Source: Pelagicoccus sp. SDUM812005 (GTDB lineage: Bacteria > Verrucomicrobiota > Verrucomicrobiia > Opitutales > Opitutaceae). Taken from it: a stretch of DNA of 64,000 nt. The stretch spans positions 620,001 to 684,000 of the forward strand of contig NZ_JARXIA010000001.1 in NCBI RefSeq assembly GCF_031127875.1, written 5' to 3'. Shown here piece after piece: positions 36,021 through 40,018 of the stretch; the first letter of the stretch is position 1, and each line of letters starts with the position of its first letter. The position numbers and the translations under genes were made by a program. A model generated the notes under the pieces. That model did no database searches and was not told the origin of the DNA. It saw only the letters and a list, made by a program, of their open reading frames with translations.

Positions 36021-36078
36021 GTAGGAGCGAGCTTGCTCGCGATTTTGCATGGATTTTCGCGAGCAAGCTCGCTCCTAC
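36021..36078. repeat. REP-like inverted pair, family 2
   Basis: Two 22-bp copies in perfect inverted orientation lie at 36021-36042 (beginning GTAGGAGCGAGCTTGCTCGC) and 36057-36078, with a 14-base spacer. Degenerate relatives appear near 4895-4913, 20136-20152 and 22856-22875. The consensus strikingly resembles REP elements known from Pseudomonas. The pair sits between ppdK and hflX. A REP-associated tyrosine transposase gene is not in the window. Confidence 0.8.
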
Positions 36079-36152: not shown

Positions 36153-38972
36153 TTACTTGGCGCGCTTCGCTTCAATCGCTGCTTGCGCGGCGGCGAGGCG
36201 AGCTACTGGTACGCGGAATGGCGAGCAGGATACGTAAGTGAGGCCCGCGTTGTGGCAGAACTTGACGGAGGCTGGATCGCCGCCGTGTTCGCCACAGATA
36301 CCGAGCTTCATGCCGGGACGAGTCTTGCGTCCCTTTTCGATCGCAGTCTCGACGAGCTGGCCAACGCCAGTTTGGTCGATCGATGCGAAGGGGTTGGCCT
36401 TGAGGATCTCGACTTCCTGGTACTTGCCGAGGAAGGAACCGGTGTCGTCGCGAGACATGCCGAGGCAGGTCTGGGTGAGGTCGTTGGTTCCGAAGGAGAA
36501 GAACTCCGCGGTTTCGGCGATCTCGTCAGCGGTGAGGGCGCCGCGTGGCACTTCGATCATGGTTCCAACGGTGTAGTCGAGCTTTACGCCCTTCTTCTCT
36601 TGGACTTCCTTGGCGACGCGGTGAACGATCTCAACCTGGATATCGAGCTCCTTCTTGAAGCCGACGAGCGGGATCATGACCTCTGGACGAGCCTTGATGC
36701 CCTTCTTCTCAACCTGGGCGGCTGCTTCGAAGATGGCGCGAGCCTGCATCTCTGCGATTTCTGGGTAGCTGATCGCGAGGCGGCAGCCACGGAAACCGAG
36801 CATCGGGTTGAATTCGTGGAGGTCGGCAACGCGCTGCATGATCTTCTCGACCTTGATGCCGAGGGTGCGAGCGAGGTCCATCTGCTGCTCCTTGGTGTGA
36901 GGAAGGAACTCGTGCAGTGGTGGGTCCAGGAGACGGATCGTCGCTGGGAGTCCCTTGAGGGCGCGGAAGATGCCCGCGAAGTCCTTGCGCTGGTAGGGAA
37001 GGAGCTTCTTGAGAGCCTTCTGGCGACCTTCGAGGGAGTCGGCGAGGATCATTTCGCGCATGGCGTCGATACGGTCGCCTTCGAAGAACATGTGCTCGGT
37101 ACGGGTGAGGCCGATGCCTTCCGCGCCGAACGCGATGGCGTTCTTAGTCTGCTCTGGTGTGTCGGCGTTGGTACGAACCTGAAGCTTGGTAGCCTTGGCG
37201 CACCACTTCATGAGCTGGACGTAGTCCTGGAACTTCTGGGTCTTTTGGGCAGCCTTCTTGCCGTTGATCAATCCGTCGATGATTTCGGATGGAGCAGCCT
37301 TGATTTCGCCTGCGTAGACTTCGCCGGTGGTTCCGTCGATGGAGAGGTAGTCGCCTTCCTTGAAGACGTTCTTGCCAACGGTGAGGGTCTTCTTGTCGTA
37401 GTCGATCTGGAGATCGGCGGCGCCGCAAACGCAGACCTTGCCCATCTGGCGGGCAACTAGGGCCGCGTGGGAGGAAACGCCACCGCGAGCGGTGAGGATG
37501 CCTTCCGCCGCGATCATGCCGCGCAGGTCTTCAGGGGAGGTTTCAACGCGAGTGAGCAGAACCTTTTCGCCGCGAGCTTCCGCGTCGACGGCGCGCTCGG
37601 CGTTGAAGTAGATCTTGCCGGAAGCGGCGCCGGGACCTGCGGGGAGGCCAGTGGCGAGTACCTTTGCCTTCTTGACTTCGTTGAGGTCGAAGATGGGGGC
37701 GAGGAGTTGGTCGAGCTGGTCGGCTGGGTTGCGGAGGACCGCAGTTTCCCAGTTGATGAGACGCTCCTTGACCATGTCGATGGAGAACTTGAGAGCGGCG
37801 GCGGCGGTGCGCTTGCCGTTACGTGTCTGCAGCATGTAGAGCTTGCCTTCCTGGATGGTGAACTCGACGTCCTGTACATCCTTGAAGTGCTTCTCGAGCT
37901 TCTTGCGAACCTTGAGGAGCTCGGCGTAGGACTTTGGCATGACGTCCTTGAGCTTGATAACAGGCTCTGGTGTACGAACGCCAGCTACCACGTCTTCGCC
38001 CTGGGCGTTGACGAGGAACTCGCCGTAGAATTCGTTTTCGCCGTTGGCTGGGTTACGCGTGAAGGCAACGCCGGAGCCGGAAGTTTCGCCAGTGTTGCCG
38101 AATACCATGGCCTGGACGTTGACGGCTGTACCCCACTCGGCGGGGATGCCGTACTTCTGGCGGTAGACGATAGCGCGGTCGTTCATCCAAGAACCGAATA
38201 CGGCGCCGGCAGCTCCGCGGAGCTGGTCCCAAGGATCGTTCGGGAAGCCCTTGCCGGTGCGGTCCTTGACGAGCTGCTTGAAGCGCTTGACGAGTTCCTG
38301 CTGGTCTTCGGCGGTGAGGGAGGAGTCGATGACGTCCTTGCCGTACTTCTCGTGCTTGAAGCTGTGGATAACGGCTTCGAAAGGCTCGACGTCTTCGTCC
38401 GGTCCGGCTTGTACGCCGAGAACGACGTCTCCGTACATCTGGATGAAGCGGCGGTAGCAGTCCCAAGCGAAGCGTGGGTTGTCGGTGGCCTTGGTGAGGG
38501 CTTCGACGGACTCGTCGTTGAGGCCGAGGTTGAGGATTGTATCCATCATTCCTGGCATGGAGTCGCGAGCGCCGGAACGAACCGCTACGAGAAGAGGCAT
38601 TCCGTCGGTGGCGCCGAACTTGGTGCCCATCTGCTTTTCCATCTTGGCGATGGCGTCTTCCATCTCAGCCTGGAGGGATGCGGGGTAGGTGCGCTCGTTG
38701 GCGTAGTAGTAGGTGCAGACTTCCGTAGTGATGGTGAAGCCTGGAGGAACTGGGAGGCCGATGTTGGCCATCTCGGCGAGGTTCGCACCCTTGCCGCCGA
38801 GCAGGTTTCTCATAGTAGCGTCGCCGTCAGTCTGTTGACCGAAGGAGTAAACGTACTTTACGTTCTTCTTTGCCGCTGCTTTGCGAGGAGCTTTCTTAGC
38901 TGCCTTTTTAGCGGGCTTACGTGCAGCCTTCTTGGCCGCTGTTGCGCGTTTCGCTGTGGTTTTGGATGCCAT
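36153..38972 (-). CDS. ppdK: Pyruvate, phosphate dikinase with lysine/alanine-rich N-terminal tail
   Basis: PPDK interconverts pyruvate, ATP and Pi with PEP, AMP and PPi. The 939 residues hold the nucleotide-binding domain ([39 protein letters not shown]), the phospho-histidine domain with His502 in [15 protein letters not shown], and the PEP/pyruvate barrel ([30 protein letters not shown]). Ahead of the fold, residues 1-37 are a histone H1-like tail rich in Lys and Ala ([18 protein letters not shown]), absent from typical PPDK of about 880 residues. No in-frame ATG lies at the end of the tail, so it appears to be translated. The role of the tail is unknown. Confidence 0.96.
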
Positions 38973-39184
38973 ACTTCGATAGCTTGGGTTATGCGATGTG
39001 GTTGAGTGAAAGACGCGGAGTTGCCTCTTCCCAGTTTCGAAAAGGGTTTCCTCATACTGATGCTACTGCGGGTGTCAACGGGAATGCTGCTTAGGCGCAC
39101 GCTCGGCTAACACCAACTCGAGGCGATTTGCGATTGCCCGCTGGGAATGACTTGCGCATTAAGGTCCGCTTTCAAGCGAATGCT

Positions 39185-40018
39185 ATGAGCGAAATCGTCC
39201 CGAAAGATTCAGATGAGGAAGTAGAAGAGGAAGACCTCGACTGGGCCGCGGATCCCAAGAAGATGGGGTTCCTCGACCACGTCGAGGAATTGCGCTGGAC
39301 GCTGATCAAGCCGCTCGCGGTCTTCTTCGTAGCTTTCGTGGTGACGGTCGTTTTCATCCAGCACGTCAAGGACGTGCTGATGTTTCCGCTCAACCAAAAC
39401 TACACGCCGGAAGACTTGGAAACCTTTAGCGGCTTGGCCACCCGCAATCCGACTGGTGTATTCACTGCGATGTTACACATCGGCTTGCTGGTGGGCGTCA
39501 CGGTCGCCTCTCCGGTCTTCCTGTACTACGTCGGCCGCTTTCTCGCTCCGGCTTTGACCAAGAAGGAGAAGAAGCTCCTGCTACCCGGCACGGCCAGCGC
39601 CTTCCTCTTGTTCGTGACGGGGGCTGCCTTCGCGTTTTTCGCTTTGTTGCCGAAGGCGATACAGGTGACGATGCAGTTCAATCGCATGATGGGCTTCCAG
39701 ATCATCTGGTCGCCGGACAGCTACTTCGGCTTTATCACTTGGATCGTTTTGGGGATGGGAGTGTCCTTCCAGTTTCCCTTGGTTGCGGTGGTGTTGGTCT
39801 ACCTCGACATCGTGAGCCTAGAAAAGCTGCGTTCTTTGCGGCGGGTTCTGATCATCGTGTTCTTTATCGCCTCGGCGGTGCTGACGCCGCCGGATCCGAT
39901 TACGCAGATCATGATGGCGGTGCCGATGATTCTGCTCTACGAACTGTCCTTGATCATCGCCGGGGTCTTGCTGCGCAAGAAGGCCAAGCGCGAAGCGGAA
40001 GAGGAAGACGAACTGTAG
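39185..40018 (+). CDS. tatC: Sec-independent translocase subunit TatC
   Basis: TatC is the receptor for twin-arginine signals in the inner membrane. The 277 residues contain the family start KKMGFLDHVEELRWTLIKPL and six membrane segments, among them FFVAFVVTVVFIQHV and LLLPGTASAFLLFVTGAAFA. The FGFITWIVLGMGVSFQFPLV and VLTPPDPITQIMMAVPMI segments are characteristic. An acidic N-terminal extension (DSDEEVEEEDLDW) precedes the fold. ATG at 39185 is preferred to a TTG at 39128. tatA/B are not seen nearby. Two Tat substrates, PhoX-like and Gfo/Idh-like, are encoded within 7 kb. Confidence 0.95.
   Translation: MSEIVPKDSDEEVEEEDLDWAADPKKMGFLDHVEELRWTLIKPLAVFFVAFVVTVVFIQHVKDVLMFPLNQNYTPEDLETFSGLATRNPTGVFTAMLHIGLLVGVTVASPVFLYYVGRFLAPALTKKEKKLLLPGTASAFLLFVTGAAFAFFALLPKAIQVTMQFNRMMGFQIIWSPDSYFGFITWIVLGMGVSFQFPLVAVVLVYLDIVSLEKLRSLRRVLIIVFFIASAVLTPPDPITQIMMAVPMILLYELSLIIAGVLLRKKAKREAEEEDEL

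Follow-up and report, generated by a model that had tools for sequence, protein, structure and literature searches.

A predicted disordered, Lys/Ala-rich N-terminal tail on the pyruvate phosphate dikinase of Pelagicoccus and its relatives in Verrucomicrobiota

The pyruvate phosphate dikinase (PPDK) gene of Pelagicoccus sp. SDUM812005, which lies in the 64,000-nucleotide stretch of DNA analysed here (the window), encodes an ordinary enzyme preceded by a Lys/Ala-rich N-terminal tail of about 38 residues. The tail is predicted to be disordered, and substitution patterns indicate that it is translated and kept by purifying selection within the genus. It may serve as an electrostatic tether to a polyanion, a reading that we favour tentatively. 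The features concerned are these:

36153..38972, (-) strand: PPDK gene, 939 aa (open reading frame, TIGR01828 and Pfam domains)
36156..38858, (-) strand: catalytic PPDK core, residues 39-939 (Pfam, TIGR01828, PDB alignment and a confident model)
37467..37469, (-) strand: His502, invariant in 57 aligned sequences
38859..38972, (-) strand: Lys/Ala-rich N-terminal tail, residues 1-38 (enzyme starting at residue 39, disorder and pN/pS)
38970..38972, (-) strand: start codon ATG, the sole start in the open frame ahead of Met54 (codon scan and substitution pattern)
38811..38813, (-) strand: Met54, the next in-frame start, within the conserved core and nearly invariant in the alignment
38973..39062, (-) strand: upstream stretch, open in frame, with no start codon and with non-coding evolution (codon phases measured on the 60 bases adjoining the ATG)

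From residue 39 onward the open reading frame is, by homology, an ordinary PPDK. The TIGR01828 equivalog matches residues 39-933 with 1307.9 bits (cut-off 843.45), covering model positions 2-865 of 865, and Pfam places PPDK_N, PEP-utilizers and PEP-utilizers_C along the chain (E ≤ 0.001); the first-pass annotation, which had called the core canonical, is borne out by this score and these three domains. In the 11 full-length PPDKs among the PDB sequences listed, their own residues 2-5 align with residue 39 of the query, and the alignment continues to residue 934. The GGVSSHA motif is invariant in the 57 aligned sequences and contains His502, presumably the catalytic phosphohistidine by homology. 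The enzyme thus shares with TIGR01828 and with PDB entries 1dik/1kbl, which we take to be the PPDK of Clostridium symbiosum, the same core (residues 39-934), three domains and invariant His motif, whereas the tail has no counterpart in the 11 full-length PDB sequences. Since both TIGR01828 and the PDB enzymes begin at residue 39, the tail represents an addition of about 38 residues.

The three PPDK_N pieces of the genome all fall inside this reading frame, and a single PPDK_N locus was found (genome 99.5% complete). Two pyruvate kinase loci are present in addition to PPDK; one of these kinases (L279) starts MYQDSHRIPRRTK and has no Lys/Ala tail of the PPDK type there. PF03618 is the classical PPDK/PEPS regulator, a kinase/phosphatase, and a domain search found no gene for it in this genome. 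The genes around PPDK encode HflX, PhoX, TatC and GFO/IDH/MocA. Between the start of hflX and the stop of PPDK (window 36021-36078) lies a perfect 22-nt inverted repeat with 14 nt between its arms, which resembles a palindromic repeat element of small size.

Of residues 1-37, 12 are Lys, 14 are Ala and none is acidic, which gives a net charge of +15. These residues had been likened in the first reading of the sequence to the tails of H1/Hc1/AlgP-type proteins, and both the composition and the predicted disorder agree with that description; in Pfam, no histone-type family matches the reading frame at E ≤ 0.001, where only the PPDK domains are found. AlphaFold2, given 57 sequences, predicts the tail to be intrinsically disordered, with pLDDT below 50 and no secondary structure over residues 1-35, and models most of the core with confidence (whole-model mean pLDDT 85.6, pTM 0.80). 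By eye, the tail has no hydrophobic stretch. In a survey of N-terminal charge over 464 kb of the same contig, which includes the PPDK gene and amounts to about 7% of the genome (346 reading frames kept), PPDK ties for the highest value (+15 in 37 aa). It is the only one of the 25 most basic N termini listed with more than seven Lys (12, against seven in the next), several of the others being Arg-rich.

Substitution patterns suggest that translation begins at the annotated ATG. This codon and Met54 are the only ATG, GTG or TTG codons in the open frame before GGKG, and Met54 is implausible as a start because it lies inside the conserved core. The earlier statement that no start codon at the end of the tail would remove it therefore holds, and the codon scan finds none upstream either. 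Among equal-length pairs of six congeners (L004-L009), differences in the tail are distributed over codon phases 1/2/3 as 0/7/42, so that third positions hold 42 of the 49. The 60 bases upstream of the ATG, read in the same frame in these six congeners as a negative control, give 57/45/55 and a pN/pS of 1.19. This contrast indicates that coding-type evolution begins at the ATG. Pooled over the 21 pairs of the seven congeners that carry this PPDK lineage (L004-L010) with a Nei-Gojobori type count, pN/pS is 0.126 for the tail and 0.130 for the catalytic core, and this equality argues that within the genus purifying selection acts on the peptide as strongly as on the enzyme. Crude pathway counting lowers the own-genus tail value to 0.076; between genera the same crude counting gives 0.42 over 307 pairs, on an uncertain alignment. 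The Lys and Ala codons of the tail are mixed, which argues against recent slippage as its source.

As far as comparison of sequences can establish it, then, the tail is genuine, coding from the annotated ATG and under purifying selection within the genus. A mis-called start was considered and rejected, as there is no other start codon and coding-type substitution is confined to the region downstream of the ATG; a slippage product or neutral tail was likewise rejected within the genus on the pN/pS and the codon phases. A neutral test of K to R against K to E replacement gave a weak contrast (AGR 30, GAR 16), and we rely on composition and pN/pS instead. Codons vary at many of tail positions 11-31 and are invariant at positions 1-10 (with one exception) and 32-39 (in four genomes). 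Some nucleotide-level constraint near the translation start is therefore possible besides selection on the peptide. A search of positions 38700-39300 for an RNA element at the 5' end of the gene found no Rfam match.

We next consider how far the tail extends among relatives, counting as a basic tail one of at least 15 aa with a net charge of at least +5. N termini were taken from the ATG nearest the core, ignoring GTG and TTG starts; 235 loci were tried, five gave no N terminus (L072, L109, L112, L120 and L229) and the core start is uncertain in two (L052 and L053). The genomes and pairs in all of our counts share history. A protein search matched PPDK in 56 of the 57 relatives' genomes, with a distant relative only in G038 and the C-terminal part only in G045. 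N termini were obtained for 54 of the 57, the own genome being counted in the family figure. Basic tails occur in 36 of 37 members of the own family, the present genome included, and in 11 of the 17 relatives that belong to the order's other families, or 47 of the 54 relatives read. Compared in this way across Verrucomicrobiota, as the first-pass annotation had proposed, PPDK N termini reveal a widespread tail and not a quirk of a single genome. The possibility it had raised, that close relatives are tailless and a sequencing error lies behind the tail here, fails against these 47 of 54, though the family member G015 is without one.

At wider range the tail becomes less regular. In a sample of the class, 60 genomes picked by hand from the 157 with a match (roughly one to a few from each family, chosen before N termini were read), a basic tail is found in 30, and the N terminus carries a net charge above zero in 58. 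Outside the class, among 40 loci chosen manually in the same way from the matches listed, three of the 39 read have a basic tail and 36 do not. A further 80 named loci are those that best match the entire query, its tail included, and this set is thus biased toward tailed relatives; of these, 76 were read and 56 have a basic tail. Their labels include Opitutaceae, Akkermansiaceae, Verrucomicrobiaceae and Chthoniobacterales, and the tailed loci among them include six labelled Planctomycetota, two Acidobacteriota and one Pseudomonadota, although most of these named loci come from metagenome bins and certain labels must be wrong (such as L132, Klebsiella pneumoniae). The PPDK of Zavarzinella formosa (Planctomycetota) has just MAK ahead of the core, and the loci labelled Limisphaerales/Limisphaera that were checked (L069, L070 and L090) have N termini of only 6-9 residues.

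Several individual cases illustrate the variation. Tail charges within the genus range from +9 to +17. The PPDK of the congener G004 (L038) belongs to a different lineage; it is 67% identical and has a 26-aa tail of +9. In the family member G015 the PPDK, 63% identical, lacks the tail and starts MK-YSYDFG. G003, also of the genus, has a second, distant PPDK (L053), only 49% identical. In L172 and L173, from two genomes of one genus (G091 and G211), presumably Akkermansia, a neutral Cys/Ser-rich start, MSTNSCA(C/S)SAS(T/P)DK, replaces the basic tail.

On a FastTree phylogeny of 94 full-length cores, from which the tail was excluded, 77 rows are labelled long, 12 short (3-10 residues, spread across the tree) and five in between are left uncounted; the long/short label needs seven changes. 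In a table of groups the long label takes 10 changes and the short label seven, and in 500 shuffles the number never fell as low. These few changes suggest that the tail is an inherited trait that has been shortened or extended repeatedly, gain and loss being indistinguishable on an unrooted tree. The class half without a basic tail, together with the 12 short rows among 94, indicates that PPDK as such can do without the tail.

What persists across this diversity is charge. Among 226 distinct N termini, mostly from Verrucomicrobiota, the tail reaches 15 aa or more in 137; 132 of these carry at least +5 and 120 are free of Asp and Glu. The 3912 residues of the 137 tails are 33.5% Lys, 24.4% Ala, 11.4% Ser, 7.2% Thr, 6.8% Pro, 3.8% Arg, 0.4% Glu and 0.2% Asp, so that Asp plus Glu amount to 0.6% and Lys to 33.5%, against 12.1% and 7.3% in the core. 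Five tails fall below +5: L048, L050 and the paralogue L053 (0 each), L246 (+3) and L169 (+4). Asp or Glu is involved in just six of 3056 tail replacements over 324 pairs whose identity at the core start is 88% or more, pairs that are not independent. Lengths span 2-114 aa. The longest tail is an APAKKT repeat on a PPDK outside the class (L248, from G249); this AlgP-like tail is possibly a separate expansion. Length and sequence thus drift across wide distances while charge persists, and this pattern is that of a disordered region selected for charge.

Similar stretches elsewhere in the genome give a hint as to the partner of such a region. A DNA-pattern search of the whole genome for KKAxKKA gave 18 matches in eight reading frames, PPDK among them, and none in a reversed control. 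By Pfam domain, three of the seven other frames encode nucleic-acid proteins: Rho, with the motif near the N terminus, topoisomerase I, at the C terminus, and a ribbon-helix-helix protein, in a long C-tail. The remainder are an isochorismatase-like protein (C-tail) and three frames of 118, 212 and 197 aa for which Pfam gives no match; in the 197-aa frame the motif lies in a KKARKKA stretch and not in a tail. The pattern misses tails of other make-up, for example that of a 191-aa frame (G000:C31:241927-242502, + strand) whose C-tail has 21 Lys in its last 37 residues. When the tail itself was searched against the own genome, only PPDK was returned, low-complexity matches being perhaps filtered.

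Some of these proteins are unusual in themselves. The ribbon-helix-helix protein (L273:1377-2003, - strand, in G000:C42) is of CopG type with a long H1-like Lys/Ala C-tail, and its gene lies tail-to-tail with a double-PPK2 gene (reading frame ending at L273:1278, + strand), 98 bp apart. The reading frame at L263:1077-1715 (- strand) has no Pfam match; in it a long stretch is followed by a short C-terminal domain that by eye resembles a starch-binding or AMPK-type module. In the isochorismatase-like hydrolase (L269:316-1605, + strand) a long linker rich in Arg and Glu is combined with a KKAAKK C-tail, an unusual fusion in a metabolic hydrolase.

The reading that we place first, and hold with some reserve, is that the tail acts as a disordered polycationic tether to a polyanion. 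Closely spaced Lys and Arg on a flexible Ala/Ser/Pro spacer would bind the polyanion, most probably a nucleic acid, which might be nucleoid DNA or ribosomal or other RNA. Of the partners suggested in the first reading of the sequence (DNA, RNA, polyphosphate or a membrane), nucleic acid is preferred solely because similar stretches occur on Rho, topoisomerase I and the ribbon-helix-helix protein. The tether would hold part of the PPDK pool at the polyanion and leave its chemistry unchanged, so that the consequence may lie in localisation or in local turnover of AMP, PPi and ATP, and not in catalysis. Against this count the mixed company of the motif (three frames without a Pfam match and one isochorismatase-like protein), the neutral starts of L172 and L173, the bare MK of G015, the half of the class sample that lacks a basic tail, the 12 short rows of the tree and the failure of any histone-type Pfam family to match.

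A more specific form of the tether, to which we give little credence, would make PPDK a nucleoid- or RNA-tethered recycler of ATP at sites of translation or transcription. PPDK can convert PEP, AMP and PPi to pyruvate, ATP and Pi; aminoacyl-tRNA synthetases release AMP and PPi, and polymerases release PPi. The tail would then place the enzyme at these sites, where it could clear PPi and regenerate ATP locally. Such a role would explain why PPDK is kept beside two pyruvate kinase loci, as well as the likeness of its tail to the stretches on Rho and topoisomerase I.

Among the alternatives to a tether, the one that survives best, though we regard it as rather unlikely, is a bristle without a specific partner that serves a bulk property such as solubility, charge buffering, folding or expression, with selection acting on charge and disorder only. 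It would account for a composition that is preserved as length (2-114 aa) and sequence vary, and for the basic character of short N termini as well (58 of 60 in the class sample above zero). It sits less easily with the strictness of selection within the genus, where the amino acid sequence of the tail is as strictly kept as that of the core, with the differences concentrated at third positions, and few other proteins in the parts of the genome searched carry such a tail.

Docking to an acidic protein partner or an anionic membrane, or use of the tail as a platform for lysine acetylation, seems improbable. The many Lys of the tail would suit it, and the apparent lack of a PF03618 regulator leaves room for another form of control, but neither a hydrophobic stretch nor a predicted helix is present, conservation over long distances is at the level of composition and not of a motif, and the neighbouring genes hint at no partner.

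It also appears improbable that the tail binds polyphosphate and so couples PPDK, an enzyme of Pi and PPi, to that polymer. The H1-like AlgP associates with polyphosphate granules, according to PMC9239181, and the genome has five PPK2-domain matches at four places, one of them the double-PPK2 gene beside the H1-like ribbon-helix-helix gene. The PPK1 domain, however, was found in none of the eight genomes of the genus, whose tails carry +9 to +17; across the class, a domain search matches it in 150 of 188 genomes. Tail charge does not differ between 32 relatives with PPK1 (median +9) and 22 without (median +10; p = 0.31), and 30 of the 32 and 19 of the 22 have a tail of 15 aa or more. The failure to find PPK1 in the genus and the lack of a charge difference leave a version based on PPK1 polyphosphate unsupported, and the polyphosphate reading is weakened, with the PPK2 domains remaining.

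That the tail arose neutrally by slippage in repeated Lys and Ala codons, or that its start is wrongly annotated, is very unlikely: variable lengths, repeats such as APAKKT in L248 and a between-genera pN/pS above the within-genus value speak for it, but the low within-genus ratio, the codon phases set against those upstream, the mixed Lys/Ala codons and the near exclusion of acidic residues speak against it.

Returning to the polycationic tether, partial precedents exist. The C-terminal KPAA domain of AlgP and PhaF in Pseudomonas is disordered, Lys/Ala/Pro-rich and H1-like, fragments of AlgP bind DNA, and AlgP localises to polyphosphate granules, as described in PMC9239181. On that account the likeness is one in kind: both regions are Lys/Ala-rich and H1-like, but that of AlgP is C-terminal, much longer (154 aa of repeats) and part of a nucleoid-type protein instead of a metabolic enzyme. 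HBHA of Mycobacterium tuberculosis carries Lys/Ala-rich repeats and in this resembles the PPDK tail in kind, but it has no place among the enzymes of central metabolism; PMC10665949 describes it as a nucleoid-associated protein. Among enzymes, the closest precedent in function is eukaryotic LysRS, which bears an appended N-terminal RNA-interaction domain (PMC6213541). That appendix is disordered, as the PPDK tail is predicted to be, and N-terminal on an enzyme, and it interacts with RNA; LysRS differs in being eukaryotic, in having tRNA as its substrate and in belonging to another enzyme family.

The first-pass annotation knew of no such tail on PPDK, and in the full-text literature searched, where subscription papers are thinly covered, we likewise found no description of one. 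PPDK and H1/AlgP-like tails are both known kinds, and within that literature their fusion appears to be undescribed. Discussion of disordered Lys/Ala tails usually concerns DNA-binding proteins, and here one is found on a core metabolic enzyme. For structural or enzymological work on the PPDK of this group, use of the full-length protein is advisable. If the tail does tether PPDK to nucleic acid, it would be a simple and testable case in which energy metabolism is coupled in space to information processing.
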